From NCBI RefSeq assembly GCF_020096995.1, contig NZ_CP083692.1:372001-436000 (forward strand): a DNA stretch of 64,000 nt. The letters are read 5' to 3'. Under the pieces are notes generated by a model. That model was given only the letters and a program-made list of their open reading frames with translations. It made no database searches and was not told where the DNA came from. Within the stretch, counting starts at the first letter, position 1. Every line of letters begins with the position of its first letter. Made by a program: the position numbers and the translations under genes. This document shows positions 3,032 through 23,732 of this stretch, piece after piece. This stretch comes from Leucobacter sp. Psy1. GTDB taxonomy: Bacteria > Actinomycetota > Actinomycetes > Actinomycetales > Microbacteriaceae.

Positions 3032-3979
3032 TCACGTGAAACGCACGCCGGTCAGCTGCTCCGAGAGCTCCCACACACGAGCGGCATCGTCCGCGCTTCG
3101 GAGCGGCTTCCAGGGGCGCAGCTCGCCCGGGTGCCCGCCGACCCCGCCGATGCCCTGGGGGCCGAAGAAGCCGCCGTCGGCGGGAGATGTGGCCGCGAGG
3201 AGTGCGGGGAGGCCGGCACTCGCGACGGTTCCGAACAGGATGCCGCGTGCCGAGAGTGCGCGGATCATGCGGGCTCCGCCGGTGTCAGTGCTCCGTCCGA
3301 GTTCGGGCCGCGCCCGCAGCAGGTTTGTGGGTGCCACGCCGGGGTGCGAGATGTTGCTGGTGATGCCCCATCCTGCCCGGGCGCTCCGCCGGTTGAGTTC
3401 GAGACCGAAGAGTCCGCATGCGATCTTCGACTGGCGGTAGGCCGCCATCCCGTCGTAACGGTGCTCCCACTGCGGATCCTCCCAGTTGATGGTGCCCCGC
3501 TGCGCGGCGATGCTCGTCTGCGTGGTGACTCGCCCCCGCCCAGCCCGCAGGAGCGGCATGAGCTGCGCCGTCAGCGCGAAGTGCCCGAGATGGTTGGTGC
3601 CGAACTGCAGCTCGAACCCGTCGGCTGTGGTCTGACGTTCCGGCGGCGTCATGACACCGGCGTTGTTGATGAGCAGGCCGACCGGAACGCCCTCGACGAC
3701 GAGGTCAGCGGTGAATCTCGCAACCGAAGCGAGCGATGAAAGATCGAGACTGCGGAGCGAGACCCGGGCATCGGGGTGCAGGGATTGGAGGTGCGCGACG
3801 GCACGCGCGCCCTTCTCGGGGTTGCGGACCGGGAGGATCACCTCCGCGCCCGACCCGGCGAGTACGGACGCGATCTCGACGCCCATGCCATCGCTGGCAC
3901 CGGTGACGACGACGCGTCGGTCCCTGAATGCCGACGCGTCAATGGTGCTCGGATCGGTGGGGACGGGTCTCGGGTTCAT
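3032..3979 (-). CDS. SDR family NAD(P)-dependent oxidoreductase
   Basis: A 315-residue short-chain dehydrogenase/reductase. TGASDGMG (residues 26-33) is the cofactor-binding loop, LINNAG the structural motif, and YRQSK the catalytic Tyr/Lys. The start is placed at the ATG at 3979 because it is preceded by GAGGGAG at good spacing. The frame stays open upstream to 4168, but that stretch is Arg-rich, runs through the regulatory palindrome and overlaps the divergent regulator, so it is not believed. The protein resembles the light-dependent protochlorophyllide reductase-like/retinol dehydrogenase-like SDRs common in actinobacteria; its substrate is unknown. It is divergent from an MmyB-type regulator, which probably controls it. 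Confidence 0.9.
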   Translation of the reverse strand: MNPRPVPTDPSTIDASAFRDRRVVVTGASDGMGVEIASVLAGSGAEVILPVRNPEKGARAVAHLQSLHPDARVSLRSLDLSSLASVARFTADLVVEGVPVGLLINNAGVMTPPERQTTADGFELQFGTNHLGHFALTAQLMPLLRAGRGRVTTQTSIAAQRGTINWEDPQWEHRYDGMAAYRQSKIACGLFGLELNRRSARAGWGITSNISHPGVAPTNLLRARPELGRSTDTGGARMIRALSARGILFGTVASAGLPALLAATSPADGGFFGPQGIGGVGGHPGELRPWKPLRSADDAARVWELSEQLTGVRFT

Positions 3980-4090
3980 GGGGTCTCCCTCGGGGCGGGG
4001 CGGGGCGGGTGCGGGTGCTGCGCGGAGCGCTGTTGTGCGGCGCCGTGCGGTTGTCTGGCGTCGTGCTGTCAGTCTCGCGTGGACGGAGCG

Positions 4091-4123
4091 GGGTATCCAG
4101 GGATCGCCGATCCCCGGATACCC
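4091..4123. promoter_or_regulatory. 33-bp near-perfect palindrome, candidate operator
   Basis: The arms are GGGTATCC/GGATACCC (outer) and GGGATCG/CGATCCC (inner), with a single mismatched pair (A4099 against C4115) and one central base. It lies in the 170-bp gap between the divergent SDR and MmyB-type regulator genes, just upstream of a GAGAAT (-10-like) at 4138-4143. It therefore overlaps the expected -35 region of the regulator. Binding by the adjacent regulator is an inference. Confidence 0.7.
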
Positions 4124-4149
4124 ACACGACGGTGCGCGAGAATAGCGGC

Positions 4150-4989
4150 ATGATCGATCGTGCCGCACTCGCAGGTTTCCTCCGGAAGCGCCGCGATGCG
4201 CTGCAGCCGGAGGACGTCGGGCTCCCGCGGGGCCAGCGTCGCCGTACGCGCGGGCTCCGCCGTGAAGAGGTGGCGGCTCTCTGCCACATGTCGACGGACT
4301 ACTACACGCGGCTGGAGCGGGAGCGCGGGCCTCACCCGTCTGAGCAGATGATCGCTGCGATCGCCCAGGGGCTGCGGTTATCGCTCGCGGAGCGCGACCA
4401 CCTGTTCCGCCTGGCCGGGCACGAGCCCCCGGCTCGATCCGGAGGCGGAGACCACGTGAGTCCCGGCATGATGCGCATCTTCGATCGCCTCGGCGACACC
4501 CCGGCCGAGATCGTCACAGAGCTCGGGGAGAGTCTCAGGCAGACACCGCTCGGCGTCGCCCTCGTCGGTGATCTTTCGCGGTACGCAGGACCCGAGCGCA
4601 GCATCGGGTACCGGTGGTTCACGCTGCCGGGAGTGCGAGACATCCACCCCGCCGAGGATCACACGTTCCTCTCCCGCATGTACGCGTCGGGCTTGCGCCG
4701 CGTGCTGGCGCTCCGCGGTCCGCAGAGCCGCGCGGCGGGACTGGCGGATCGGCTGCTCCAGCGGAGCGAGGAGTTCCGCGCGCTCTGGGAACAGCACGAG
4801 GTCGGCATCGTGCCGCGCACGGGGAAGCGGTACCTGCACCCCGAGGTCGGGAAGTTGGAACTCGACTGCCAGATCCTGCACGATCCGGAGTCGTCGCACT
4901 CCCTCCTCGTCTACACCGCGGAACCCGGCAGCGAGAGCGCGGAGAAGCTGCAGCTGCTCTCGGTGATCAGCGCCCCAACGGTCGTGTGA
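4150..4989 (+). CDS. Helix-turn-helix (XRE) regulator with MmyB-like ligand-binding domain
   Basis: A 279-residue DNA-binding regulator. An N-terminal HTH (about residues 5-85: FLRKRRDAL, RRTRGLRREEVAALCHMSTDYYTRLERERG) precedes a ligand-binding domain of about 180 residues (FDRLGDTPAEIVTELGE... GKLELDCQILHDPESSHSLLVYTAEPGS) typical of the MmyB/MLTR_LBD family. In this family the C-terminal domain is thought to bind small hydrophobic ligands. The ATG at 4150 is six bases after GAGAAT with no Shine-Dalgarno, which suggests a leaderless transcript. It probably represses itself and the divergent SDR gene through the palindrome at 4091-4123. Confidence 0.9.
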   Translation: MIDRAALAGFLRKRRDALQPEDVGLPRGQRRRTRGLRREEVAALCHMSTDYYTRLERERGPHPSEQMIAAIAQGLRLSLAERDHLFRLAGHEPPARSGGGDHVSPGMMRIFDRLGDTPAEIVTELGESLRQTPLGVALVGDLSRYAGPERSIGYRWFTLPGVRDIHPAEDHTFLSRMYASGLRRVLALRGPQSRAAGLADRLLQRSEEFRALWEQHEVGIVPRTGKRYLHPEVGKLELDCQILHDPESSHSLLVYTAEPGSESAEKLQLLSVISAPTVV

Positions 4990-4993
4990 ACGG

Positions 4994-5737
4994 TTACTGC
5001 AGCACCTCGATGGCCTCGGCGGGGAGGATGCGACGCCCGGTGAAGAACGGCACCTCCTCCTTGACGTGCAGGCGCGCGTCGACGGCGCGGAGCGCGCGCA
5101 TCATGTCGACGAGCTCCGTGAGATCGTCCGCTTCCATCGGCAGGAGCCACTCGTAGTCGCCGAGCGCGAAGGCGGCGACGGTGTTCGCCACTACTCCGGT
5201 GTACTGAGCACCCTCGCGACCGTGCTCGGCGAGCATGCGGCCTCGCTCTGCCGGGTCGATGAGGTACCAGTCGGTCGACCGGACGAACGGGTAGACGGCG
5301 AGCCACTGCTTCGCTTCGATGCCGCGGACGAAACCGGGCACGTGCGAGCGGTTGAACTCGGCCTCGCGGTGCACTCCGACAGCGCTCCACGTGCGGATGA
5401 GCGGCTTCACGAGCGCGGTGCGGCGCAGCTGGCGGAGCGCCCACTGCAGGTCCTCAGCGGACGAGCCGTGGAGCCAGAACATGAGGTCGGCGTCGTGACG
5501 CATGCCGCTGACGTCGTAGATGCCGCGCATGACCACGCCCTCGTCGCCGATGAGGCGGACAACATCCTCAAGCTCTTCCACGATGCCGGGCACGTCGCGG
5601 CCGTCGAAGATCTCAGCGTGGCTCGAGCTGGTGCGGAAGACCGCGAACATGGTGAAGGCGTCAGCTGCGGCTTCGGGGGCTGCTGCAGCGTCGACGGAAG
5701 CGGATTCTGCGGCCTCGTGGCGGGCGTCACTACTCAT
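4994..5737 (-). CDS. chdC: Coproheme decarboxylase ChdC (HemQ)
   Basis: A 247-residue chlorite dismutase-family protein. In actinobacteria it performs the last step of the coproporphyrin-dependent heme pathway, decarboxylating coproheme to heme b with peroxide. After an Ala-rich N-terminus of about 27 residues come FTMFAVFRTS, LMFWLHGSSAEDLQWALR, YPFVRSTDWYLID and the conserved block RMLAEHGREGAQYTG, whose His is generally taken as the heme-iron ligand. The Tyr of YPFVRS matches the catalytic Tyr position. The other heme genes are not in the window. The gene converges with the regulator at 4150 with only 4 bp between. Confidence 0.92.
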   Translation of the reverse strand: MSSDARHEAAESASVDAAAAPEAAADAFTMFAVFRTSSSHAEIFDGRDVPGIVEELEDVVRLIGDEGVVMRGIYDVSGMRHDADLMFWLHGSSAEDLQWALRQLRRTALVKPLIRTWSAVGVHREAEFNRSHVPGFVRGIEAKQWLAVYPFVRSTDWYLIDPAERGRMLAEHGREGAQYTGVVANTVAAFALGDYEWLLPMEADDLTELVDMMRALRAVDARLHVKEEVPFFTGRRILPAEAIEVLQ

Positions 5738-5788
5738 ACGTCAATCGTCCTCTCATGCGCGCGGTAGCGCAAGTTCATGTGGCGGTGG

Positions 5789-7450
5789 TCAGGGTCGGCT
5801 AGCGAGTTCCCAGGGGGCCGGGGTCGGGAAGTACGTCTCGAGCCAGTCCCTGAGGTAGGCGATGTTCTCGGCGGTGGCGTCCGGGTTGTCGTTGATGCAG
5901 AAGGTTGCGGCCTTGCGCGACTTCAGCTGCGCGGCGAGACGCGGCATGAACTCGGGGTCGCTGAGGTCGAAGTAGTTGTAGAGAATGTCGCCGGGCATCG
6001 TCTGCTTGCGCACGTAACCGAAGTAGTGGTGCAGCCACCCGTTGATCTCGGTGTCGTCGGGGGAGCGGAGCTGATGCGACCACGTCGAGGTGAAGACCTC
6101 GGGGAACTCGTTCTCGAGTTCAAGCAGTAGATGACGGAGCTGCGGGATCGGCGTGTGGTAGAAGATCCGCGTCGCCGTGACTCCGTATTCGCGCTCGAGG
6201 AGGTCGACCGCGTTGCGGCGAGCGGACTCATGGGTGAGATCGAATTCGGATGCGACCGGCAGCGTCGACTTGGAGAGGAAGAACCGGGCGACGCCGTTCG
6301 GCTCGAAGAACTGGTTCGCCGGGATGTCGTGCCCGATGAAGACGTCGTCGTTGAAGATCAGGTAGCGGTCGGAGAGGCCATCGATGTGGTGCAGACGGCC
6401 GGCGATCGCGTGCGAGTTGTATGTGGGAAGTGCGCCGGCGTCGCCGAACAGCTCCCGATGATCCACCATGCGGATCCGCGGATGGGACGTGTCGAGCCAG
6501 CTCGGCGTCTGCCCGTCGGTCACGAGGATGATGTTGCGCACCCAGTCGCAGTGCTGGAACACCGAACGCATCGAGTACTTGAGTTCACCGTTGTCGCGGA
6601 AGCGTGAGGGATCGATGCTGTCTGCAGGTGCGACGCCGGTGAGCTCCTCGATCACGCGGTCGCGCCTGGCGCTCCACTCGGCGTCCGCTCCGTCGACCCA
6701 CAGGAAGACGACGTCGACGGGTTCCCGCGTCTCGAAGACCGTCGGGCGGTCGAGCGGCGCGAAAGTCGGCACCTCCACGCCGTGGAGTTCTGTGGTCGCC
6801 GGGGTCATCGCCGACGGGTCGATGGATGCCGTGCGGGTGTTCTTCGCCGCGGTTTCGAGGGAGCCGTCCTCGGCGCGGCCCCAGCGTTCGACGACGGTCG
6901 CCTCCGCGCGTCCCATGCGGCGCACATGGTCGGGGTCGATGAAGAACTCGAAGAGTTCGATGGTGCTCTGCTCCTGGAGCGCTCGGCGTGCCGCTGACGA
7001 GTCTGCCCGCACGACGGAGCGCCGCTTCTTGCCCGAGGGGTTTACGGTCTCGATGCCGAGGTGCAGGGTGCCGTCATCACCCGAGGCCTCCGTGCCCACG
7101 GCGTCGGCGAAGCGCTGCCAGTGCTCCTGTTCGACGGCGATGGTGGCGTCGGTTCGGGTGGCGTTGGGTACGGCGAAGAAGGGGACGTCGTGCTCGCGCA
7201 AGAGAGCGACGGTGTTCGCGAAGTTGCGCCGCCTGGCGTCGTGCTGGGTGATGCCGGGGGCGCGCCTCGCGAGCCAGACCCGCTCGTAGGCGTAGACGAT
7301 CCCAAGATCGGCGTCGCCGGCGACGGTCGATCGGAACCGCGCACTCAGGGCGCGCCGCCGCAACCGCTCGGCAGGATCCTTCACCACGGTGAAGGGGCCG
7401 CGCCGCAGCACGCTGAGGAGCAGGCTGCGCGAGGGGGTGTTCACGGGCAT
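5789..7450 (-). CDS. Stealth-family sugar-phosphate transferase
   Basis: A 553-residue cytosolic or membrane-associated enzyme of the Stealth family, which transfers sugar-1-phosphate units from nucleotide sugars to build phosphodiester-linked capsules. The conserved regions appear in order: CR1 VDVVFLWVDGADAEW (about residue 245), CR2 RFRDNGELKYSMRSV and NIILVTDGQ (about 283-310), CR3 YNSHAIAGRLHHI and YLIFNDDVFIGH (about 343-370), and CR4 around STWSHQLRSPDDTEINGWLH (about 457). The first 240 residues are a variable region. The ATG at 7450 has GAAGGA 10 bp upstream; an in-frame ATG at 7501 is possible but less well placed. It is divergent from a CDP-glycerol-type phosphotransferase and starts the surface-polymer locus. 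Confidence 0.88.
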   Translation of the reverse strand: MPVNTPSRSLLLSVLRRGPFTVVKDPAERLRRRALSARFRSTVAGDADLGIVYAYERVWLARRAPGITQHDARRRNFANTVALLREHDVPFFAVPNATRTDATIAVEQEHWQRFADAVGTEASGDDGTLHLGIETVNPSGKKRRSVVRADSSAARRALQEQSTIELFEFFIDPDHVRRMGRAEATVVERWGRAEDGSLETAAKNTRTASIDPSAMTPATTELHGVEVPTFAPLDRPTVFETREPVDVVFLWVDGADAEWSARRDRVIEELTGVAPADSIDPSRFRDNGELKYSMRSVFQHCDWVRNIILVTDGQTPSWLDTSHPRIRMVDHRELFGDAGALPTYNSHAIAGRLHHIDGLSDRYLIFNDDVFIGHDIPANQFFEPNGVARFFLSKSTLPVASEFDLTHESARRNAVDLLEREYGVTATRIFYHTPIPQLRHLLLELENEFPEVFTSTWSHQLRSPDDTEINGWLHHYFGYVRKQTMPGDILYNYFDLSDPEFMPRLAAQLKSRKAATFCINDNPDATAENIAYLRDWLETYFPTPAPWELASRP

Positions 7451-7561
7451 CGGTTCGGCGTCCTTCGGTCGAGTCTCACAGCTGGCCTTGCATTCCAGCA
7501 TCTCACGCCGAGCTCCCCTGAACCTCAAGGGCAGCCGACTAGAGTAGTGGGCAGGGAACCC

Positions 7562-7582
7562 GGGTCGCGGAGTGCGCGACCC
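7562..7582. promoter_or_regulatory. 8-bp inverted repeat in the probable 5' leader of the 7615 gene
   Basis: GGGTCGCG (7562-7569) and CGCGACCC (7575-7582) flank a 5-base loop. The hairpin lies downstream of a TAGAGT (-10-like, 7540-7545) and 32 bases before the ATG at 7615, so it would be in the transcript leader. Its role is unknown. Confidence 0.5.
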
Positions 7583-7614
7583 CGTCCGAGAACCGACATC
7601 GGAAGCGGGTGCGT

Positions 7615-9228
7615 ATGACTCTTCGGCACCGCGCGCTGTGGGCGCGGCTGATCGGGGACCGCCTGTGGGTGCTGCTGTACGCCTACGACCACCGTAAGCG
7701 GTCCGGCCGGCCCGCGAAGATCACGGTGGCTGTCGGCGATTCGGGCCGTCCGCAGCGGATCGACGTTCCCGTCGCCTCGCGCCAGCCGAAGTCTCCGCTG
7801 GCGCTGCTCCGCTGCTTCCATCTCCTGCGGCTGCCTTTGCCCGAGGGCAACGAGGGTGAAGTCAATCACCGCGTGCGATTCACTATCGAGCAGGAGAGCG
7901 GTCGGAAGCGCCTCGGTGTCAGGTATCCGCGACGGCGCCCCGAGCAGCACCCCCGACTCAACTACGCACCGGTGTCCCCGCGGTTCCGCGGCGGCTCTGC
8001 GGAGCACCTGCGTCGCACGGCGAAGGACCTGCTGGTGTTCGTGCGCAGGCCGATGGTGCCGCGGGAGCGCACGCTCCGCTTCCGGTTGCGCGAGTCCTGG
8101 CTCGTCTCGGCGCTGCTCTTCCTCGCGACCGCCGTAGCGCGAGGCACCAGCCGGCGCCGGGTGACCGTGTTCTACGAGAAGTTCGCCGCCCACGCCGACG
8201 AGGGCGCCTTCGAGCTGTTCACCGAGTTCCAGCGGCACGCGCCCGACACCTACTTCGTCATCGATGCGTCGAGCCCCGACTACGCCCGGACGGCACGTCA
8301 CCCCCGCACGCTGCGGAAGTACAGCTGGCGATACTACTGGGCGATCTACCGTGCCGATACCTATGTCGGCACCGAGATCCCGACCCATCTCAGTCTCCTC
8401 CGGTCGAACAATGGCTGGTTGCGGCGGCGGATCTACACCACCCCGTACGTCTTCCTGCAGCACGGCATCATCTACCTCAAGAACCTGTCGCGGTCGCCCT
8501 TCGCCCGCGGACGCGAGGGGGAAGCGGCGTACATCGTGGCGAGCAGCGCGAAGGAGCGCGACGTGATCGTTCGGGATCTCGGGCTGACGCCCGACCAGGT
8601 CCTCATCACGGGGCTCGGACAGTTCGGGCTGCTGCAACCAGGAACCATCGGCCCCGGGACTGCTGACGTGGTCACGATCATGCCCACGTGGCGAGCCGAG
8701 GACGAGGCGGTCGAGGACTTCTCGGAGACGACCTATGCGCGGGTGATGACCGAGGCCGTCGACGCGATCCGAAGCGTCTCGCGAGACGCCCGGATCCGAC
8801 TCGTGCCGCACCCGAAGGTCGCCGAGCAACTCGCTTCGACCTCGCTGGCCGCGGACCTGTGGGCCGGCTCGGTCGCGGACGCTCTGCACGACACCAAGCT
8901 GCTCATCACCGACTATTCGTCGATCGCCTACAACGCGTTCTACCGCGGGGCCGCCGTGTTGTTCTTCCAGCCTGACCTGTCGGCATACGAAGCGAGGACG
9001 GGACCGCTGATCCCGGCGCCGGAGGAGTACGTCGGGTACCGCACGTTCGATGCCACGGGCCTGCGGGCCATCGCTGCGACGGGACTCTCGCGGGATGGAG
9101 TGATCGACCTCGCCGCCTTCCGCACGGCCGAGCACGAGCGCCAGTACGCGCTCATCAACGAGTTCGACGACGGTCGCAACCTGGACCGGATCCAGGCCGA
9201 GCTCCGCCGGGTGCTGCTTGACGAGTGA
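7615..9228 (+). CDS. CDP-glycerol/CDP-ribitol glycerophosphotransferase family (TagF/TarL-like)
   Basis: A 537-residue GT-B type phosphotransferase predicted to move glycerol-phosphate or ribitol-phosphate from its CDP donor to a teichoic-acid-like chain at the inner membrane face. The catalytic half spans about residues 180-537: YEKFAAHADEGAFELF, VFLQHGIIYLKN (about 278), VVTIMPTWRAED, RLVPHPKVAEQ and ITDYSSIAYNAFYRG (DYSS near 432). The HG and DYSS motifs are the family hallmarks. The start chosen is ATG 7615, nine bases after GGAAG; the GTG at 7609 would be only three bases from it. A weak membrane protein gene follows immediately. Confidence 0.88.
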   Translation: MTLRHRALWARLIGDRLWVLLYAYDHRKRSGRPAKITVAVGDSGRPQRIDVPVASRQPKSPLALLRCFHLLRLPLPEGNEGEVNHRVRFTIEQESGRKRLGVRYPRRRPEQHPRLNYAPVSPRFRGGSAEHLRRTAKDLLVFVRRPMVPRERTLRFRLRESWLVSALLFLATAVARGTSRRRVTVFYEKFAAHADEGAFELFTEFQRHAPDTYFVIDASSPDYARTARHPRTLRKYSWRYYWAIYRADTYVGTEIPTHLSLLRSNNGWLRRRIYTTPYVFLQHGIIYLKNLSRSPFARGREGEAAYIVASSAKERDVIVRDLGLTPDQVLITGLGQFGLLQPGTIGPGTADVVTIMPTWRAEDEAVEDFSETTYARVMTEAVDAIRSVSRDARIRLVPHPKVAEQLASTSLAADLWAGSVADALHDTKLLITDYSSIAYNAFYRGAAVLFFQPDLSAYEARTGPLIPAPEEYVGYRTFDATGLRAIAATGLSRDGVIDLAAFRTAEHERQYALINEFDDGRNLDRIQAELRRVLLDE

Positions 9229-9235
9229 TGGCGTG

Positions 9236-9769
9236 ATGCGGTCGCCGCGCTCGCCGCAGCGGCCGATGGCGTTCACCGGTGCCGAGTTCCTCCGCGGCGG
9301 TGTCTGGGCCATCGGCATCTTCATCGTGGCGCTGCCGTGGGTCACGTTCATCGGTTCGTCCAGTTTCGCGGGTGAGAGCGCTACGCCCGGCAGGACCGAG
9401 TTTGCCATCGTGCCATACGTCATGCTGCTCGCCGGTGCGATCGCAGGGTTCGTGTACGTCACCTATGGGAGTGCGCTCGCCTATCTGCTCGGACGCGCGC
9501 TTCGAAGCACACGTCGTCGTTCAGTTCATCGTGTCTGCTTCGCTGCGCTCGGGTTGCTCATCGGCTACGTCACCCTGATGCTCACGGACCTCGCGGGGAT
9601 CACGATGGTGTCCGGGAGCGCGGGGGCGGGGGCCCCGAGCATGCTGTCCGCGCTCATCTCGGTGGCCGCGGGTGCCTCGGTGCTCGCCGGCTGGGAGATC
9701 ACGAGCGCGAAGGCGCTGCGCGCAGATGCGTGGATGCTCCGAGACCGTGACGCGTCAACGGAGACCTGA
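9236..9769 (+). CDS. Hypothetical four-helix membrane protein
   Basis: A 177-residue protein with four strongly hydrophobic segments: GGVWAIGIFIVALPWVTFIG, a long one containing YVMLLAGAIAGFVYVTYG, AALGLLIGYVTLMLTDLAG and LISVAAGASVLAGWEI. I recognise no family. It begins a few bases after the stop of the phosphotransferase gene and is probably cotranscribed. The exact start is uncertain: GTG 9233, ATG 9236 or ATG 9266 are all possible, and none has a clear ribosome site. It converges with the 9854 gene, leaving 84 bp in which I see no terminator. Confidence 0.65.
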   Translation: MRSPRSPQRPMAFTGAEFLRGGVWAIGIFIVALPWVTFIGSSSFAGESATPGRTEFAIVPYVMLLAGAIAGFVYVTYGSALAYLLGRALRSTRRRSVHRVCFAALGLLIGYVTLMLTDLAGITMVSGSAGAGAPSMLSALISVAAGASVLAGWEITSAKALRADAWMLRDRDASTET

Positions 9770-9853
9770 CTTGGGGTGGATGCGTGACGTCGCCACGGCG
9801 CTCAACTGCCGGATGGTCGTCGAGCCGTCGGGCTGGGGCGGGTCGGTCAGCGG

Positions 9854-11572
9854 TTAGTCCTGTCCTGCCGCGAAGGTGAAGCCCTGTGCGCGATGCCGCT
9901 CCTCGGCGCGTGCGAGATCCTCTTTCGCGGTGCGCACGAAGACGTCCGCGTAGCCGTCGGCGGGAAGATCCCCGAGATAGTGGCGGCGCATTTCTCGACG
10001 CATATCAGCGAGAGGATCGTTGCCGAGCATCGCGGCCAGCTGCTCATCCCAGACCGTCTCGTCGGTACCGGGGAAGATGTATGCGGACCGTGCGAGCGGA
10101 AGCTCCCGAATCAGCTCCTCAGGTGAAGAGGCGCCCGTCATCAGTCCCAACGGCTTCCCCGAGTACAGGTAGTCCGACACCACACTCGAGACGTCGGCAA
10201 GCATCGCATCGCTGATGTTGAAGCAGTCGTTCACCGTCATCTCTGTCTCCGCGGCGAACCCGAACAGGTGACCGGTATCGCTACTCTCATTATCCGCGCG
10301 GAGCCGGTCGTGGATGCGATCGATGGCGGCCGAGAGCGCCCCATCCTGGCGGCTGTACGGGTGCGGACGGAAAACGATTCGAGATCCGCGCTCGATCAGC
10401 CTGTCGAGGAGGGGCTCGATCATGAGCAGCGAGCTGTAGGTCGAATCGTTGAAGTACCCGCGCCAGGTCGGCGCGTAAAGCACCGTCGGACGGTCTTTCT
10501 CGCCGATGGGAGAGTCATCACGGATGACGTCCTCGACCTGCGGCCTGCCGACGATGGCGAACTTGTCCTCTGGGATTCTCACGTTGTTGTCCGCATAGCG
10601 GTCGATCCCTGCCTGCCCGGCGACGTAAATGCGGTCGTACATAGCGGTGACCGGGTTGTAGCTCGAGGCTTTCTCGCTGTCTCCGTGGAGGAGCTGGATG
10701 TGCGTGAGATGGTTGTATCGCACCATATGCGCATTGCGGTCGGCATTGTTCACGTAGAACACCGTCGAGACGGTGGCAGGCAGGATATTGTCGATCGAAC
10801 TGAGCGTCCGCGCGAAGACGATCGGGTGGTTGGGAACTGCTGCGATCGCCTCGGGAAGACTCCCGGCATTGCGGACCACCACGATGAAGCGCTCTCCCAG
10901 ACGCTCGAGGAACGGGAGCCACATCTTGATCTGGTAGGCGCTGTTGACCGGCGCGACCCAGTACAGGATGAACGTGGGATCGTAGCTCTCGAGACGACTC
11001 TGCAACTCTGCGAACAAGCGGTCGCCGGCCCGACGCCGGCGGAGGGCCTGAATGAGCGCGACGAGTGCGATGATCGCCACGGCAGCGGCGCACACGGCCA
11101 GCGCCACGCCGTGGAGTTGGGCGACCGCAAACGCCATCAGCAGGGCAGGAAGCGCGAGCAGCGTGAGCATCAGTGCCGTGAGCGTCCTGGGGTGGGGCTG
11201 GGGGAGGTCCGCGCCCGGGAGGTTGATCACGTCGAAGGGGAGGCTGCGTGAGATTTCGAGGATTCCACGCGAGAACCTGATGAGGAACACCGTCACGCTC
11301 AACGCCAACCATGCGAAGAGCGCGCCGTTCGCATCGCCGTAGATGAGGGGACCTGCGATACCGAAGGTGAACGAGATGCGTGTCGCCACCTGCGTTACGG
11401 CGTGATTGCGCCAACGCCGGTACCTGATCTCCCTGATCTGACGGACGAGAAGGAGGCCGTACCCGAGTACCCAGACGGCGAGCCCTGTCCACAGGAACCC
11501 TGCCAGGAGGGCGACGCTCCCGAGCACCGCTGACAGCGCGATGACGGCTCCGGGAACTTTAGTGCGGAGCAT
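9854..11572 (-). CDS. Membrane-anchored CDP-glycerol/ribitol glycerophosphotransferase
   Basis: A 572-residue protein with an N-terminal membrane part of about 200 residues (at least four hydrophobic stretches, such as VIALSAVLGSVALLAGFLW and LTLLALPALLMAFAVAQ) and a C-terminal phosphotransferase domain. The domain shows ILYWVAPVNSAYQIKMWLPF, IQLLHGDSEK (about 292), VLYAPTWRGYF (about 370), IVFRPHPYS and MLADVSSVVSDYLYSGKP (about 455). The DVSSV motif replaces DYSS. The ATG at 11572 follows AGAGGA at 5-bp spacing; upstream in-frame sequence belongs to the SDR gene. It is third in the operon 12995 to 9854 behind the CDP-ribitol synthesis pair, so ribitol-phosphate is the likely unit (inference). 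Confidence 0.85.
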   Translation of the reverse strand: MLRTKVPGAVIALSAVLGSVALLAGFLWTGLAVWVLGYGLLLVRQIREIRYRRWRNHAVTQVATRISFTFGIAGPLIYGDANGALFAWLALSVTVFLIRFSRGILEISRSLPFDVINLPGADLPQPHPRTLTALMLTLLALPALLMAFAVAQLHGVALAVCAAAVAIIALVALIQALRRRRAGDRLFAELQSRLESYDPTFILYWVAPVNSAYQIKMWLPFLERLGERFIVVVRNAGSLPEAIAAVPNHPIVFARTLSSIDNILPATVSTVFYVNNADRNAHMVRYNHLTHIQLLHGDSEKASSYNPVTAMYDRIYVAGQAGIDRYADNNVRIPEDKFAIVGRPQVEDVIRDDSPIGEKDRPTVLYAPTWRGYFNDSTYSSLLMIEPLLDRLIERGSRIVFRPHPYSRQDGALSAAIDRIHDRLRADNESSDTGHLFGFAAETEMTVNDCFNISDAMLADVSSVVSDYLYSGKPLGLMTGASSPEELIRELPLARSAYIFPGTDETVWDEQLAAMLGNDPLADMRREMRRHYLGDLPADGYADVFVRTAKEDLARAEERHRAQGFTFAAGQD

Positions 11573-11607
11573 GCTGGTCCTCTCCGAATGGAACGGTCGC
11601 GAGCGGC

Positions 11608-12315
11608 CTACTGTCGGACAACGAGGTTCTCCGAGTCGATGTACTGGCCGACCGGAGACGCGAGCATGCCGATCACTTCCGCAACGCTGTCCGGCTGCAT
11701 GATCGTCGCCGGATCCTCGTCGGGAGCGAGGACCTTTCGGAGGTCGGTCGCTGTCCGTCCAGGAGAAATGCTGACGACCCGAGTGCCGAAGATCGCGAGT
11801 TCTTCGCGCAGGACGTCGCTCATGTTGATGAGGGCGGCCTTCGACGCCGAGTACGTGAGCCACCCGGAACGTCCCTTGATGCCAGCGGTCGACGCGATGT
11901 TCACGATGAGGTCGAAACTGTTCCCCTGATGGAGGAGGTCCTGGATCAGCGTGAATGGGCCGTACAGGTTCACTGACATGGTGCGTTCGAAGTCCTCGAA
12001 CTCGATCTGGTGTACCGGAACGGGGTTCGTGTAGCCCGCATTGTTCACGAGTATGTCGATATTGCCGACGCGCTCGCCGAGAGGCTTGAGCGCCTCCTGG
12101 AGTGCACTGCGATCTCCGACGTCGACGGTGAGGTCGACCACCTGCTTGCCGAGCTGCTCGGCTTCTGAGCGCAACTCTTCGAGGGTCGCTTCGTACGCCG
12201 AGGACGGCCGTGCCGCTACGACGATGGTAGAGACCTCGGGACTCTGCAGGAGCCGCTTCGCAGTTTCGCGGCCGATGCCGCGCGAAGCCCCGGTGATCAG
12301 CGCAGTCTTGCTCAT
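11608..12315 (-). CDS. SDR oxidoreductase, likely ribulose-5-phosphate reductase of CDP-ribitol synthesis
   Basis: A 235-residue classical SDR: TGASRGIG (cofactor loop, residues 8-15), VNNAG, IASTAG (catalytic Ser) and YSASK (catalytic Tyr/Lys). The tail SPGRTATDLRK recalls the reductase domain of bifunctional CDP-ribitol synthases (Acs1/Bcs1 of Haemophilus), which are an IspD-like domain followed by an SDR domain. Here the same two parts are separate genes in the same order, with a 4-bp ATGA overlap. The predicted reaction is D-ribulose 5-phosphate to D-ribitol 5-phosphate with NADPH. A general SDR with another substrate is the alternative. Confidence 0.85.
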   Translation of the reverse strand: MSKTALITGASRGIGRETAKRLLQSPEVSTIVVAARPSSAYEATLEELRSEAEQLGKQVVDLTVDVGDRSALQEALKPLGERVGNIDILVNNAGYTNPVPVHQIEFEDFERTMSVNLYGPFTLIQDLLHQGNSFDLIVNIASTAGIKGRSGWLTYSASKAALINMSDVLREELAIFGTRVVSISPGRTATDLRKVLAPDEDPATIMQPDSVAEVIGMLASPVGQYIDSENLVVRQ

Positions 12316-12995
12316 TCTTCCTCCTCGCCGTCGTGCATGAGGAACGCCGCGAGACGGACGTCCACCGGGGTGGTCACCTTCAGATTGATGTCGGATCCGT
12401 CGACGAAGTGAACCGGATACCCCTGCGTGGCGACGAGCGTCGCGTCCTCGGTAAACGTCTCGTGTCGTTCGGCCGCTGCCGCGTGAGCGGTGGCGAGGTC
12501 ATCCTTAGCGAACTTCTGCGGAAGCTGAACGTTGCGCAGTCTGCTCCGATCGAGAGAGCCCGTCACGGTGTGCGCCTCGGGGTCGACCGGGGCGACCGTG
12601 AATGGGATGGGGTGCATCAGCGAGACGTTGCGGTGCTCGGAGTCGATCAGGCGCCGGAAGTCCTGAGCACTCGCCAGCGGTCGAGCCGCCTCGTGGACGA
12701 GGACCTGCTCGTACGTTGCGTGCGGCACGAGTGCCGCAACGGACTCGTGCCGAGTTGCTCCGGCCTCGACGTAGGTCACCGGAGTCTCGATCGCGTAGTC
12801 GGCGACGAGCTTCTGGACGGCATCGAGCTGACCAGCGGGAAAGTTCATCACGATCTCGGCGATCTCCGGGATCCGGTCAGCGACCGTAAGGGGGTAGACC
12901 AACAGTGGAATCCCCTTCACCTTCAAGAACTGCTTGGGTTGCCCAGCACCGACGCGGCTACCGATGCCGCCGTTGAGCAGGAGGAGGGAATACAT
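12312..12995 (-). CDS. IspD/TarI-family cytidylyltransferase, likely D-ribitol-5-phosphate cytidylyltransferase
   Basis: A 227-residue nucleotidyltransferase that would make CDP-ribitol from CTP and ribitol 5-phosphate. The motifs are LLLNGGIGSRVGAGQPKQF (nucleotide binding), TRHESV, VHEAARPL, RNVQLPQKF and TEDATLV with INLKVTTPVD. All are positions conserved between IspD and TarI. Its place in front of an SDR and among CDP-polyol phosphotransferases favours TarI over IspD of the MEP pathway, since ispD normally sits with ispF. The start ATG 12995 is chosen because the domain begins there; upstream in-frame residues look non-coding. AAAGGTG lies 13 bases upstream. Confidence 0.85.
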   Translation of the reverse strand: MYSLLLLNGGIGSRVGAGQPKQFLKVKGIPLLVYPLTVADRIPEIAEIVMNFPAGQLDAVQKLVADYAIETPVTYVEAGATRHESVAALVPHATYEQVLVHEAARPLASAQDFRRLIDSEHRNVSLMHPIPFTVAPVDPEAHTVTGSLDRSRLRNVQLPQKFAKDDLATAHAAAAERHETFTEDATLVATQGYPVHFVDGSDINLKVTTPVDVRLAAFLMHDGEEEE

Positions 12996-13037
12996 GCGAG
13001 AAGTTACACCTTTGGTTTGCTTATCGGACCTCTGTGA

Positions 13038-13067
13038 ACAGTAACCAAAGTGCAGGACAACGATCAA
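13038..13067 (-). promoter_or_regulatory. Candidate promoter for the 12995-9854 operon
   Basis: On the minus strand TTGATC (13062-13067) is followed after 18 bp by TACTGT (13038-13043), about 40 bp upstream of the cytidylyltransferase ATG. The match to a sigma-70-type promoter is moderate. The 200-bp divergent gap (12996-13195) is the most AT-rich stretch nearby. Confidence 0.35.
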
Positions 13068-13153
13068 TCGAGATACGCAATTGTGATCGACTGGTGATTA
13101 TTTCTCAGTACGGGCAAATCACGTCCTCCTCAGCGGAGTGGAGCTAACCTAAA

Positions 13154-13185
13154 GGTCGTAAACCGTTCATCCCCTATTTACGACC
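13154..13185. promoter_or_regulatory. 9-bp perfect inverted repeat upstream of the two-domain phosphotransferase gene
   Basis: GGTCGTAAA (13154-13162) and TTTACGACC (13177-13185) are separated by 14 bases and end 10 bases before the proposed start. A TAACCT that could serve as a -10 box lies at 13145-13150. The repeat could be an operator or a leader hairpin. Confidence 0.55.
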
Positions 13186-13195
13186 GGATTCCTCA

Positions 13196-16100
13196 TTGCC
13201 ACGACTCAATAGAGCCATCGGACGCTTCTCGATCGCGCGGGAGCGTCGCAACCAGGTCAGACGGAGTGTGCGGGCAGGAGTATCTCCTTCGGCGGCTGCG
13301 CGTGTGAGCGGCAACCAGTTCGAACTCGAACAAGAATTCAGTGAAGCGTTTCCGATCGGACTCGTCGTGGGGTGGCGGGATCGCGTGCTCGGGCGCTTCG
13401 ATGTCGAATCGAGAATCGGGGAGAACGGCTCACAGCGTGCATGTGCGAGCGTCTCGCTGACCGAGATCGAGGAGATGTATCGGACGGCGCGACGACATCT
13501 CGCTGCTGACGCTGAAGCGGAAGCCGCACGAACGGGCGACGAAGTGGACGATGCCGTTGAGTTCCCCACCCTCATTCTGCAGATCGCTTGGGTGTTCGGA
13601 CCCTCGAGCTCAGCGGCGGACTCATCGTATCTCCGCGGCTACATCCATGACGGGTGGATCGTCCCGGCGAAGCGCGCCAGCGCGATCATCAGAGCGGCCG
13701 GAGGGTCTGAGGATCTCTGCGACTGGATCTGCTGGGCGGGCAATTCTGCTGAACTCTCCCTCTCCGAGAATCACCGGCTTCCGAGCGAGGTAGGTGTCGC
13801 TGAAATTCGGGGAAATCGCTTCAACAGCTTGATTTTCGCGGTGGGGGAGCCGGAGGCGACGCGAGTCGCCGCCTACGCCGATTCAATCGATGTGCAGAGT
13901 AGTCGTATCACCGTTGCGGGTCGCATCGGTGTGCTGACCGGCGGTATCGACGCAGCCGAGTTCGTCTGGAAGGCGCATGCAACGGGGAGCGAGTTCCTCG
14001 GCCCCGCCACTCTCCAGCTCGATGAGATGTGGACTCTGCACGACGCCGGCCGCAAGACTTACCTGTTTACGGCAGAGGTCGTCTTCGATCCTGCCCGGTG
14101 GGACGAGCTGGTGCTTCGCGATAACTTCGACGCCTACTTGCGTCTCCGGGATTCGCGGTCCGGTGAGCAGATCGATGCACGACTGACGCGTGTCCCGTTC
14201 CTCGCACGACTGTTCCACACCGAGTCGACGGCGCAGTCCGCGGGTGGAGTGCTGACGATCCTGCCGTACTTCACGTTCAAAGCGAAAGCGCTCTCCGCTC
14301 GAGTCGAGTATTTCCCCACAGAGATCTCGCCACTGCTCGATCCTTCAGGCGCGATGGCGCGGAGGGCGAAGCGCGTCAGACAGCGCGACAGACCGATTTG
14401 GATCATCGGAGAACTCCCGTATAAGGCTCAAGACAACGGGATGCATTTTTACCGTTGGATGCGCGAGCACCATCCTGAGATCGATGCCTACTATGTTCTG
14501 CAGAAGGACTCACCCGAGCGCAAGAATCTCGGGTACTTTGACCACGTCATCGAGCATGGCTCTCGTGAACACTTCGAACTCGCGCTTGCCGCCGATAAGT
14601 TCGTGGGCACTCACCACGTCGACTATCTGTATCCGACGCAGAACCCTGATTACGTCAAGCACTTGCGCGGCACGAGAGTCTTCCTGCAGCACGGCGTGAT
14701 GGGCACGAAGTGGATGGTGCCGAACTACGGCAAGGACGTTCCTGGGTTCGCTACCGATCTCTTCATCACGTCTTCGGAGTACGAGAAGAGCTATATCGTC
14801 TCGGACTTCGGCTACGACGAAGACGAGGTCGTCGTCACCGGGCTCCCACGGTTCGACCGGTTGCTTGCTCCGGGATCCTCTGCCGAGCCCGGGACGGTTC
14901 TGGTGATGCCGACCTGGCGGGACTGGCTTCGCTCTGCAGAGGACTTCACCGACACCGAGTATTTCAAGCGCTGGCACGGTCTCCTCACCTCTGAGGCGTT
15001 CACTCGTGTGCTGCAGCAGCGCGGGCTCACGGTGACGTTGTGCCTGCACCCCAATATGCAGCGATACAGTCATCTGTTCGAGGGTGCTCACGTACGGGTT
15101 GTGTACCAGGGCGAAGAGGACGTGCAGTCGCTGATGATGCGCAGCGCATGCATGATCACCGACTACTCGTCGGTCGGGTTCGACTTCAGCTTCCAAGAGC
15201 GACCGGTGATCTACTTCCAGTTCGACCGCACCCGCTTCATCGGCAAGTACGGGTCGCATATCAATCTCGACGCCGAGCTTCCCGGCTACGTCTGTTTCGG
15301 TGAACTCCAAGTCACGGCCCGTCTGGATGAACTCGCCGCCGCGGGCTTCGTCCAGCCAGAAGCGCTTCGCGATCGTTCTCACAAGTTCCTCGCACATCGC
15401 GATACCGATCACAGCCGCCGCGTGTACGAAGCGATCTCCGCGACCTCCGTCTCCCGGCGGCACTACACGCGCCCGGGGCTCGTCGAAGCGCGCTCCGTCG
15501 CATTCAAATGGTATCGGCGAAGTGGCCTCTACTATCCCTCCATGAAAGCGATGTATCGAGTCGTGAGCCGTCTGCCGCGGAAACGGGGTCTGGTCGTTTT
15601 CGAGTCGCACGTCGGGAAGCAGTACAGCGACTCGCCGAGATACATTTACGAAGAGCTCTCTCGGCGCTCGCCCGATTCGCCTAAAGTCTGGGTGCTCGAC
15701 AGGCCCCACCGCTTCTCTGATCCCGGTACGTCAGCGGTCACGAGGCTGTCCCCCGGCTACTTCTGGAATCTCGCCCGCGCTGAAACGTGGGTGTTCAACC
15801 AGAACGCGCCGCACTATCTGCAGCGTCCCCCGAAGACCACATACATTCAGACCTGGCACGGCACCCCGTTGAAAAAGATGCAGCATGATCTCGCACAGGT
15901 CTTCGGCCGTGACGAGGGCTATCTGGATCGCGTGACAGCGGCGACTGAGCAATGGACGCATCTGCTGTCACCGAGCGCGTATGCCACTGCGGCGTTCCGC
16001 TCCGCTTTTCGCTATGACGGAACCGTCGTCGAGCTCGGGTACCCACGGAACGATCCGCTGGTTTCCGCCGATCGAGATGCGCGGGCGGCCGAGATTCGGC

Positions 16101-16669
16101 GGGCGATGCTCATTTCCGAAGAGCAGCGCGTCGTGCTCTACGCTCCGACGTTCCGAGACGATCAGTTCAGTACACGCGGGCGCTTCACCTTCGATCTTCC
16201 GATGGACTTCGATCGCTTCGTGCAGTCGACTCCCGACGACACCATCCTGCTCCTCCGCTTGCACACCCTGATCTCTCGAGGGATCGAGATCCCGCAGGAG
16301 CTGCAGGGTCGTATTCGCGATGTCTCGGCGTACGACGAGATCCAGGATCTGCTCCTCATCTCGGATGTTCTGGTGACCGACTACTCGTCAGTCTTCTTCG
16401 ACGCGGCGGTGCTCGAGCGTCCGATCGTCTTCTACGCATACGATCTCGAGCAGTATCGAGACCGTTTGAGGGGGTTCTACCTCGATTACGAATCGGAAGT
16501 GCCCGGCCCCGTGGTGACCTCGGAGCAGGCGCTGTGGGAATCGGTCTCAGATGCCCTCGAGGGGGCGATCGATCGGCAGGCGAGGCAGGAGTTCGTGCGG
16601 CGTTTCAACCCCGCTGATGACGGAAGCGCGTCCGCTCGAGTGGTGGAGCGTCTCATCCTCGGTCAGTGA
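13196..16669 (+). CDS. Two-domain CDP-glycerol/ribitol phosphotransferase (polymerase)
   Basis: A 1157-residue protein with two complete TagF-like catalytic domains. Residues 1 to about 380 form a region of no known function, rich in predicted beta structure. Domain 1 (about 398-750) has IWIIGELPYKAQDNG, VFLQHGVMGTKW, VLVMPTWRDW, LCLHPNMQRY and ITDYSSVGFDFSFQERP. Domain 2 (about 795-1150) has GLVVFESHVGKQYSDSPRY, YIQTWHGTPLKKM, VVLYAPTFRDDQF and VTDYSSVFFDAAVLERP. Two active sites suggest a chain polymerase or alternating-linkage enzyme. The TTG at 13196 is the farthest start in frame with no clear ribosome site, so the N-terminus is uncertain. It is divergent from the CDP-ribitol operon. Confidence 0.9.
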   Translation: MPRLNRAIGRFSIARERRNQVRRSVRAGVSPSAAARVSGNQFELEQEFSEAFPIGLVVGWRDRVLGRFDVESRIGENGSQRACASVSLTEIEEMYRTARRHLAADAEAEAARTGDEVDDAVEFPTLILQIAWVFGPSSSAADSSYLRGYIHDGWIVPAKRASAIIRAAGGSEDLCDWICWAGNSAELSLSENHRLPSEVGVAEIRGNRFNSLIFAVGEPEATRVAAYADSIDVQSSRITVAGRIGVLTGGIDAAEFVWKAHATGSEFLGPATLQLDEMWTLHDAGRKTYLFTAEVVFDPARWDELVLRDNFDAYLRLRDSRSGEQIDARLTRVPFLARLFHTESTAQSAGGVLTILPYFTFKAKALSARVEYFPTEISPLLDPSGAMARRAKRVRQRDRPIWIIGELPYKAQDNGMHFYRWMREHHPEIDAYYVLQKDSPERKNLGYFDHVIEHGSREHFELALAADKFVGTHHVDYLYPTQNPDYVKHLRGTRVFLQHGVMGTKWMVPNYGKDVPGFATDLFITSSEYEKSYIVSDFGYDEDEVVVTGLPRFDRLLAPGSSAEPGTVLVMPTWRDWLRSAEDFTDTEYFKRWHGLLTSEAFTRVLQQRGLTVTLCLHPNMQRYSHLFEGAHVRVVYQGEEDVQSLMMRSACMITDYSSVGFDFSFQERPVIYFQFDRTRFIGKYGSHINLDAELPGYVCFGELQVTARLDELAAAGFVQPEALRDRSHKFLAHRDTDHSRRVYEAISATSVSRRHYTRPGLVEARSVAFKWYRRSGLYYPSMKAMYRVVSRLPRKRGLVVFESHVGKQYSDSPRYIYEELSRRSPDSPKVWVLDRPHRFSDPGTSAVTRLSPGYFWNLARAETWVFNQNAPHYLQRPPKTTYIQTWHGTPLKKMQHDLAQVFGRDEGYLDRVTAATEQWTHLLSPSAYATAAFRSAFRYDGTVVELGYPRNDPLVSADRDARAAEIRRAMLISEEQRVVLYAPTFRDDQFSTRGRFTFDLPMDFDRFVQSTPDDTILLLRLHTLISRGIEIPQELQGRIRDVSAYDEIQDLLLISDVLVTDYSSVFFDAAVLERPIVFYAYDLEQYRDRLRGFYLDYESEVPGPVVTSEQALWESVSDALEGAIDRQARQEFVRRFNPADDGSASARVVERLILGQ

Positions 16670-16672
16670 CGA

Positions 16673-17821
16673 TTAGGCCGCGTCATCTCGGACCGCTCCG
16701 GGAGCGAAACTCATCCCGTTGTCGATCGTGTACGTCGCCAGACCGTTGCTGAACGGCATGGTTCTCGGCTCGTCCTCGGCGATGTCTCCCGCTGTTGCGC
16801 CTGCGATGAAACCCCAGTCTCCGCCGGGGCCTCCGCGCTTCCGATACGCGGCGAGAAAAATGCCGCGCGTGAGACCGAGGGTGACCGGATCGCCGCTCTC
16901 ATCGGTGTAGGAGGTGATCACGCCCTTCTCAAACTCTTGATAGGTGCCGCCTCCATTCTCCGTGATTTCGATCTGCTGGCCCGTGGGCTCACCATATCGA
17001 GCAGGCTTCTGGAAGTAGACTTCGCCGATCGCGCCAGGCACCTCGAACGGGAGGTCAGGGCTTTTCGGCGGATTCAGAGCGAGCACGGCTTCGTCGATCG
17101 GGCCGTCGAAGACGACGCGTCCCTTCTCCAGCACGATTCCGCGATCGCAGAGCTTCTTGAGCTGACCGGCGGCGTGACTGACGATGAACATCGTCTTGCC
17201 CTGCTCGCGAAGCTCGAGCATGCGCTGCTCGCACTTCAGCCGGAACTGCGCGTCGCCGACGGAGAGCACCTCGTCGACGAGCAGCGTCTCGAACTCGGTG
17301 TGCACGGCGACCGAGAATCCGAGCCGCGCGTACATGCCAGACGAGTAGCGTTTCACTTCGGTGTCGATGAAGTCGCCGATCTCGGAGAACTCGAGGATCT
17401 GGTGAAAACGGTCCTCGGTCTCCTCCTTGCTCATGCCGAGAATCGCGGCATTGAGGTAGACGTTCTCGCGCCCGGTGAGGTCAGGGTGGAATCCGGCGCC
17501 GACTTCGATGAGGCCGGCGGTGCGACCACGGGTGCGCACCCAGCCGGAGTCGGGCCGGAGAACTCCGGACAGGAGTTTCAGCGTCGTCGACTTACCTGAA
17601 CCGTTGCGGCCCATGAGCGCCACCGACTGACCGCGGGGCACCTCGAAGGAGACCTCGTCCACAGCGTTGAAATGCGTCGAGAGCTCCTTGCGCTTCAGGG
17701 AGGCGATGAACGTCTCCTTGAATGACTGGGTGTGGTTGATCTTGAAGCTTTTGCACACGTCGTGGAATACGATCGCGGGCTTCTCCTCCGGATCGATCAC
17801 GGCACTAGAGTCGCTGGGCAA
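16673..17821 (-). CDS. ABC exporter ATPase (TagH/Wzt type) with LGFP-like C-terminal region
   Basis: A 382-residue ATPase that powers export of an undecaprenyl-linked wall polymer with the permease encoded just upstream. It has Walker A GRNGSGKST, the Wzt/TagH-type phrase LIEVGAGFHPDLTGRENVYLN, the signature YSSGMYARLGFSVA, Walker B TLLVDEVLSVGD and the switch VSHA. From about residue 265 the tail is not a usual Wzt sugar-binding domain but reads GGGTYQEFEKGVIT... TRGIFLAAYRKRGGPGGDWGF, which resembles LGFP repeats. The start is TTG 17821: GGAGGG lies five bases upstream. It overlaps the permease gene by 17 bp. Confidence 0.92.
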   Translation of the reverse strand: MPSDSSAVIDPEEKPAIVFHDVCKSFKINHTQSFKETFIASLKRKELSTHFNAVDEVSFEVPRGQSVALMGRNGSGKSTTLKLLSGVLRPDSGWVRTRGRTAGLIEVGAGFHPDLTGRENVYLNAAILGMSKEETEDRFHQILEFSEIGDFIDTEVKRYSSGMYARLGFSVAVHTEFETLLVDEVLSVGDAQFRLKCEQRMLELREQGKTMFIVSHAAGQLKKLCDRGIVLEKGRVVFDGPIDEAVLALNPPKSPDLPFEVPGAIGEVYFQKPARYGEPTGQQIEITENGGGTYQEFEKGVITSYTDESGDPVTLGLTRGIFLAAYRKRGGPGGDWGFIAGATAGDIAEDEPRTMPFSNGLATYTIDNGMSFAPGAVRDDAA

Positions 17822-18671
17822 AGGAACCCTCCATCTTTCGGAAGACGAGCTGACCGATGACGAGTGTGAAGATCGCGATGCCGAAGCTGATCAGCACGTT
17901 GGTGAACAGTTCTTCGGGGCGCGCGGCATTCGGCGACAGCGGGAGCCAGAACGCATCGTGAAAGAGCTCGACCGCAGAGGTCATCGGGTTGACCATGTAG
18001 ATGTGGTACAGCCAGTCGGGTGCGCGTTCGGCGACCATGCTCCAGGAGTACAGCACCGGCGACGCCCAGGTCGAGAACATCAGGATGATGTCGACGATGT
18101 TCTTGGCATCTCGGAATGCGACGTTGATCGCTCCGAAGAACAGTCCCAGGCCCAGCGCGAAGGTCAGGATCAGGACGACGCCGACGAGAAAACCGACCAC
18201 TTGCAGCCAGCCGATCGTCCAGCCGAAGATGAGCGCGACGACGAGCAGCAGCAGCGCCTGCGGGAGGAAGTGGATGAAGCCCACCCCGACGGCCGCGACG
18301 GGGAAGAGTTCTCGGGGCATGTAGATCTTCTTGATGAGCGACTTGTTGTCGATCAGTGCGCTGGTCGTGTTGCGCAGCACTTCGCTGAAGAGGTTGACCG
18401 CCACGATGCCTGAGAACAGGTAGATCGGGAAGAGGTAGATGCCACGGTCAGCGCCGAGAATCACCCCGATCACGAGGTAGTACATGAGGAACTGGGCGCC
18501 GGGCTTCACGTACGACCAGACCCAGCCGAGCGCGGATCCGTAGTAGCGGGTCGCCGTGCCCTTCCGGAGGAGGAGGGACAGGAGGTAGCGCTGCCGGATC
18601 AGGCTGAAGAGGCCCTTGCTCTGCCCGGGGGTCGAATACTCCGGATCGGTCAGGGCGGAGTGCGTGCTCAC
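17805..18671 (-). CDS. ABC-2 type polysaccharide export permease (TagG/Wzm type)
   Basis: A 288-residue inner-membrane protein with about six hydrophobic segments. It has the family's early motif RYYGSALGWVWSYVKPGAQFLMYYLV and the middle block NTTSALIDNKSLIKKIYMPRELFPVAAV typical of Wzm/TagG proteins. It forms the channel for lipid-linked polymer with the ATPase encoded downstream. The start is GTG 18671 with GAGGAG eight bases upstream. Its 5' end overlaps the acyltransferase gene by 4 bp, so oxidoreductase, acyltransferase, permease and ATPase form one operon (20425 to 16673). Confidence 0.93.
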   Translation of the reverse strand: MSTHSALTDPEYSTPGQSKGLFSLIRQRYLLSLLLRKGTATRYYGSALGWVWSYVKPGAQFLMYYLVIGVILGADRGIYLFPIYLFSGIVAVNLFSEVLRNTTSALIDNKSLIKKIYMPRELFPVAAVGVGFIHFLPQALLLLVVALIFGWTIGWLQVVGFLVGVVLILTFALGLGLFFGAINVAFRDAKNIVDIILMFSTWASPVLYSWSMVAERAPDWLYHIYMVNPMTSAVELFHDAFWLPLSPNAARPEELFTNVLISFGIAIFTLVIGQLVFRKMEGSFAQRL

Positions 18672-19414
18672 GGTCGAAGCTCCTCATTCACGCTCACGGG
18701 GCGGAGCCCCTCGGTGGTGCGCCAGGGCACGAGTGCGTCCTCGAGCTCCGCGAGCGCGCCGGAACGCGGCGCGGCCCCGGTGAGGAGATCACCCGAGGCG
18801 TACGCGGATGCCAGCGCATCGATCGCGGCATCCGAGTGGCCGGACCGACTCGCGCCGATGCGATTCACTCCGGCGAGCCGCGGGGGAGTACCGTAGACCT
18901 TCGCGAAGGGAGGCACGTCGCGAGTGACAGGGGTGCCCATGCCGACCATGGCTCCGGCACCGATAAACCGCCGCTGATGGACGACGGCGTTCATGCCGAT
19001 GTTCACCCGGTCGCCGATGATGCAGTGTCCACCGATGCTGACGCCCGCTGAGACGGTCGCGTCGTCGCCGAGAAGCACGTCGTGCGCGAGGTACGCGCGA
19101 TTCAGTACCCAGCTCCGAGCGCCGACGGTGGTTTCGCGATAGGTCCCCTGGTGGATGACCGCTCCCTCGCGGATCACGGCTCCCGCACGCACCCGCACGC
19201 CGGCGTGCTGCAGGTCTCCCGCCCACGCCGGGTTCTGCGGGAGAGTCGACATCTCAGGCGGGGCCCCGATCTGGGCACCAGGGCCGATCCAGACCCCGTC
19301 CTCGATCACGCAGGGCCCGAGAATGACGGCACCAGGCCCGATCGCGACGTCTTCGCCGATCTCAACACCTTCGCCGATGAACGCCATCGAGCTGATGTGT
19401 GAACTGTCTTCCAC
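18668..19414 (-). CDS. LpxA-like hexapeptide acyltransferase
   Basis: A 248-residue left-handed beta-helix acyltransferase. Hexapeptide repeats fill residues 8-170 (IGEGVEIGEDVAIGPGAVILG; VSAGVSIGGHCIIGDRVNIG). AYLAHDVLLG, NAVVHQRRFIGAGAMVGMG and PPFAKVYGTPPRLAGVN match the layout of LpxA, the UDP-GlcNAc O-acyltransferase. Lipid A is not expected here, so the role is more likely N- or O-acylation of a nucleotide sugar, probably the amino sugar made with the adjacent Gfo/Idh oxidoreductase. The last 50 residues are not hexapeptide. The start is GTG 19414, inside the 27-bp gap after the oxidoreductase. In other bacteria lpxA sits next to gnnA/gnnB, a close parallel. Confidence 0.85.
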   Translation of the reverse strand: MEDSSHISSMAFIGEGVEIGEDVAIGPGAVILGPCVIEDGVWIGPGAQIGAPPEMSTLPQNPAWAGDLQHAGVRVRAGAVIREGAVIHQGTYRETTVGARSWVLNRAYLAHDVLLGDDATVSAGVSIGGHCIIGDRVNIGMNAVVHQRRFIGAGAMVGMGTPVTRDVPPFAKVYGTPPRLAGVNRIGASRSGHSDAAIDALASAYASGDLLTGAAPRSGALAELEDALVPWRTTEGLRPVSVNEELRP

Positions 19415-19441
19415 GCGTATCCGTTCTTCGTCCTGTGCTCG

Positions 19442-20425: not shown

Positions 20426-20531
20426 GTATTCATCCTCACCGCTTGCGCAGTCGTGGTCAGGGAACCAGTTCTAGTGTATTCCTCGGCGTCTCAGAGTGTC
20501 TCGCAATGCTCTCAGGCACCCTATCGCGGGC

Positions 20532-22915: not shown

Positions 22916-22923
22916 GGTGCCGC

Positions 22924-23628: not shown

Positions 23629-23732
23629 GCCCCTATTCTTGCAGATCGCTGTGTGGGGTAACCTGGGGTAGCGGAGTGCTGAACCCACAGCCTCTGGAAC
23701 GGCGCGAATCGATGATGTGCGGGGGACGACGC

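Follow-up and report, generated by a model that had tools for sequence, protein, structure and literature searches.

A perfect inverted repeat, GGGTCGCG-GAGTG-CGCGACCC, occupies positions 7562-7582 on the forward strand of our window, the 64,000-nt stretch of Leucobacter sp. Psy1 DNA analyzed here, and lies within a 24-nt block (7561-7584) that is identical at all 24 positions in Leucobacter tardus. We tentatively favor reading it as an ordinary 5'-leader stem-loop that is predicted to set the basal expression of the downstream gene, a CDP-glycerol/polyol phosphotransferase-like gene of family PF04464. A first-pass annotation had described an 8-bp GC-rich hairpin here, located between a TAGAGT box and the ribosome site, and both statements held up with exact coordinates. 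The arms, GGGTCGCG (7562-7569) and CGCGACCC (7575-7582), form eight of eight Watson-Crick pairs around the 5-nt loop GAGTG; the box is at 7540-7545 and a Shine-Dalgarno-like GGAAG is at 7601-7605, all on the forward strand.

The hairpin stands in a 164-bp spacer between the start codons that we chose for two divergent genes, ATG 7450 of a leftward Stealth-family gene (5789-7450, reverse strand) and ATG 7615 of the rightward PF04464 gene (7615-9228, forward strand, 537 aa). The listed open reading frames begin at TTG 7528 and GTG 7609, respectively; ATG 7615 was preferred over GTG 7609 because GGAAG, which is GGAGG in L. tardus, stands 9 nt upstream of it. The Stealth product carries four Stealth Pfam domains (CR1-CR4). 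The phosphotransferase family that the first-pass annotation had assigned to the downstream gene was recovered by a Pfam match of 60 bits (E = 2.6e-16) against a curated cut-off of 22.1. The product is thus a member of the CDP-glycerol glycerophosphotransferase family, and its activity and substrate are predicted at most.

Among the relatives that we found, only L. tardus has a close counterpart of this protein, an orthologue with 82% identity. Matches were obtained from 58 of 100 relatives in a protein search, the next by score after L. tardus having 31% identity over about 340 residues, and matches at that level were left out as orthologues. Those from other Leucobacter genomes were incomplete and far weaker (the best at E = 9e-26, 31%). 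A scan of genome contigs returned 21 loci, comprising L. tardus, five Clostridia assemblies at 35-42%, and a remainder at 22-30%. The patchy spread of the protein possibly reflects horizontal transfer.

Conservation of the spacer could be evaluated in a single species pair. Our DNA search of 54 Leucobacter genomes matched three, namely the Psy1 genome itself (3.25 Mb), L. tardus (record NZ_JAGFBF010000001.1), and a third genome (G041) with a weak match of 29 nt (E = 6e-4), so that the region is present only in the first two. The whole spacer is identical to that of L. tardus at 144 of 164 positions, with substitution-free runs at 7469-7509, 7520-7541, and 7561-7584. The hairpin block (24/24) is more conserved than the remaining leader within 7546-7614 (34/45; Fisher p = 0.006) and marginally more so than the remaining spacer (120/140; p = 0.047). 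The 22 invariant bases at 7520-7541 probably belong to the promoter region of one divergent gene or of both. The 41-base run at 7469-7509, nearer the Stealth gene, is probably part of that gene's promoter or leader; it is interrupted by a 2-base insertion in L. tardus, carries GCTGG and CCAGC arms, and is longer than the hairpin block.

Invariant 24-mers were found at 19 of 141 positions of the spacer vs 15 of 613 across seven other non-coding stretches, and at 645 of 22,007 aligned positions overall. All 15 of the non-coding control positions fall in 22482-22923 (15 of 419 positions), which lies between a DUF6541 gene (20532-22481) and a glycosyltransferase gene. An open reading frame at 20605-22764 was rejected as a gene there, as it has no Pfam match and the real gene is that at 20532-22481. 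Ten of the window's 22 merged hairpins, counted as described below, can be fully aligned to the two matching stretches of L. tardus, and the hairpin at 7562 alone retains eight of eight pairs; the other nine have lost one to five pairs each, although they are a weak control because most are located within genes or close to them, where synonymous sites can change freely. In the single orthologous leader, the arms and the loop are identical, so two sequences hold no compensatory change and give no covariation signal. Taken over this one species pair, the comparison suggests selection on the spacer, including the hairpin block. An RNA hairpin and a DNA operator look alike in these data, because there is one pair of species, the loop is also fixed, and covariation is lacking.

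The strength of the hairpin is what such GC-rich DNA yields by chance, and the hairpin alone is weak evidence. Counting perfect 8-bp stems with loops of 3-10 nt, we found 30 in the window (67% G+C) vs 18-28 in ten order-1 Markov shuffles. Merging overlaps left 22 hairpins, which corresponds to about 0.06 expected in any given 164-bp spacer. The 21-mer at 7562-7582 folds at -15.9 kcal/mol, and 21-mers as low as this occur at six of 63,980 positions on the forward strand and seven of 63,980 on the reverse strand, vs six, three, and three in three equally long order-2 Markov sequences. What is less expected is that the hairpin stands within a short leader and is conserved.

The putative -10 box, TAGAGT, is TACACT in L. 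tardus; T1, A2, A4, and T6 are retained (TANANT), and it therefore fits a -10 box. This box would place the transcription start at about 7551-7554. A promoter scan found no -35/-10 pair near the hairpin, an intrinsic terminator scan of 7400-7700 found none and no T-run after the hairpin, and an Rfam search of window positions 7000-14000 with E up to 1 had no matches. Folding of 7546-7630 was unexceptional (z = -0.65, with 51 of 200 shuffles as good); its minimum-energy fold omits the hairpin, whose stem probability there is 0.05. We also modeled transcripts of six lengths from an inferred start at 7553, taking the lowest inner-pair probability as the stem probability. It was 0.96-0.97 at transcript lengths of 35, 43, and 65 nt, and 0.33, 0.91, and 0.49 at 93, 123, and 163 nt. 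The corresponding values for L. tardus were 0.65-0.81 at the three short lengths and 0.47-0.93 over all six.

We rejected blocking of the ribosome site by the hairpin, since opening the hairpin hardly altered the accessibility of the start codon or the ribosome site. Accessibility of the start codon was 0.79-0.99 with the hairpin free to form vs 0.76-1.00 with the hairpin region held single-stranded, and the hairpin therefore appears unlike a ribosome-blocking switch. The ribosome site was unpaired at 0.25-0.40 vs 0.20-0.46, and these similar values indicate that other sequence pairs with it to some extent in both cases.

In the favored reading, transcription from about 7551-7554 would place the first base of the stem about 9 nt from the 5' end, with 18 nt separating its last base from the ribosome site, which the stem would itself leave uncovered. 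Folding would follow immediately on transcription of the stem, which could set basal expression through protection of the 5' end or by limiting other folds of the leader; no ligand or switch is indicated. We favor this leader stem-loop because of the invariant block next to a more variable leader, the retention of all eight pairs in this hairpin alone, and the high stem probability in short transcripts. Its weaknesses are that the loop is conserved just like the stem, a feature that base pairing by itself would not demand, and that stem probability drops in some longer transcripts. Results from Mycolicibacterium smegmatis temper it as well: deletion of 5'-UTR hairpins left half-life unchanged, deletion of both raised the transcript level, and structure at the 5' end did not as a rule follow stability (PMC11728522).

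Among the other readings, a DNA operator is possible, if doubtful. Transcription could be blocked by a dimeric regulator bound to two GGGTCGCG half-sites, which would span about +10 to +30 relative to the inferred start. The invariant block, which consists of the palindrome with its loop plus one or two bases per side, resembles a dyad protein site, and the palindrome is located between two divergent genes. With up to two mismatches it is also commoner in the Psy1 genome than a reversed control (29 sites vs 8). The same is seen in most of the 54 genomes, and this excess is perhaps a word-composition bias in coding DNA. The exact palindrome, GGGTCGCG-N5-CGCGACCC, however, occurs once per genome, in Psy1 and in L. 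tardus, and neither flanking gene encodes a regulator. The closest regulator gene that we saw, 2.6 kb from the hairpin, encodes an MmyB-like HTH protein (3928-4989); it is divergent from an SDR gene (3032-4168) and overlaps the listed frame of the latter. We sorted the 28 near-matches in the Psy1 genome (leaving out the hairpin's own site) by the Pfam matches on their frames, and 17 were clearly coding, which also speaks against an operator, while 11 were unsettled. Fifteen of the 17 fall within a stretch matched by Pfam, L120 with a score under the curated cut-off, and the other two (L110, L115) are located between a pair of domains in a single frame. The unsettled sites comprise seven in frames with a domain elsewhere (L102, L108, L109, L111, L119, L123, L128) and four in frames without a Pfam match (L113, L121, L122, L126); L108 and L119, which precede the first domain of a frame, could be leaders. 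A rule based on frame composition, by which 24 of the 28 were coding, was dropped since it also accepts a frame over the spacer hairpin's own site. No wide regulon or multi-gene operator was seen among these 28 near-matches, 11 of them unsettled.

It is likewise conceivable, though we doubt it, that the repeat is a functionless GC-rich sequence, identical in the two species since the whole spacer evolves slowly. The hairpin counts are close to expectation, the spacer as a whole is highly identical with a merely marginal excess in the block over the rest of it, and other invariant 24-mers occur in coding and non-coding DNA. Slow evolution of the whole spacer is harder to reconcile with the adjoining leader, where 7542-7560 has diverged (11 of 19 identical), with the 4-fold degenerate sites of the downstream PF04464 gene, of which 146 of 271 (54%) are identical, or with the pairs lost from the other alignable hairpins. 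Attenuation, in which a GC hairpin without a U-tract would pause or end transcription early as an I-shaped terminator, appears unlikely. In a study of Streptomyces clavuligerus, structured 3' ends of this U-less kind were frequent: 353 highly structured transcript 3' ends had no U-rich tract, and there were also 150 premature transcription units (PMC8269248). Against attenuation, no T-run follows the Leucobacter hairpin, the hairpin would end merely about 30 nt into the transcript, and we noticed no antiterminator or leader-peptide arrangement, short of a systematic search. More improbable still is that a regulatory RNA or an operator specific to this lineage couples the CDP-polyol phosphotransferase, and possibly both divergent genes (Stealth and PF04464), to the state of the Leucobacter cell wall.

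A second inverted repeat, GGTCGTAAA-N14-TTTACGACC, lies at 13154-13185 on the forward strand before the gene for a 1157-aa protein with PF04464 and TarS_C1 domains. The first-pass annotation had taken the two repeats together to suggest that these wall genes have structured leaders. The repeat at 13154 is real, with 9-bp arms and a 14-nt spacer, but comparison of the two leaders does not support a shared structure, because the second repeat differs in its arms and spacing and its module is absent from L. tardus. Both repeats have GGTCG/CGACC in their arms, spaced differently, and neither leader folds clearly better than its shuffles (z = -0.65 for that at 7562 and -1.22 for that at 13154). The second repeat has no further copy with up to two mismatches in its own genome, where one additional site has three mismatches, and a DNA search with its leader found nothing in the other 53 Leucobacter genomes. 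Relatives of the 1157-aa protein from other families align from residue 192 onward only.

L. tardus aligns to window positions 4992-9262 and 16706-24577, and because these parts are about 40 bases apart there, the intervening 7.4 kb (9263-16705), including the repeat at 13154, are absent from it. This segment holds a 669-aa PF04464 protein, an SDR protein, an IspD-family cytidylyltransferase, and the 1157-aa TarS_C1 and PF04464 protein. The cytidylyltransferase, which falls below NCBIfam cut-offs, may have a TarI-like role, and the segment is a putative wall-polymer module that was gained or lost.

The textbook case of a 5'-UTR hairpin in a bacterial message is that of E. coli ompA. The Leucobacter element is similar in having a GC-rich stem near the inferred 5' end and upstream of an accessible start codon, and differs in that its start is predicted from sequence. 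Another general class is that of dyad-symmetric repressor operators located between the promoter and the start codon, which the Leucobacter palindrome resembles in its perfect 8-bp half-sites and conserved center; unlike them, it has no further exact copy in its genome and is not flanked by regulator genes. It shares a stable GC stem-loop without a T-run with the I-shaped terminators reported for GC-rich bacteria, but lies in a leader just past an inferred promoter rather than at a known transcript end (PMC8269248). In one actinobacterium studied in this respect, 5'-UTR hairpins gave a reporter no stabilization (PMC11728522). Among the best matches of our literature search, no title dealt with this Leucobacter leader. 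The hairpin is a candidate for a minor cis-acting control element of an ordinary kind. Because operators and leader hairpins as small as this one are common, the general interest is small; if functional, the element would offer a handle on how Leucobacter sets the expression of a teichoic-acid-type polymer gene.
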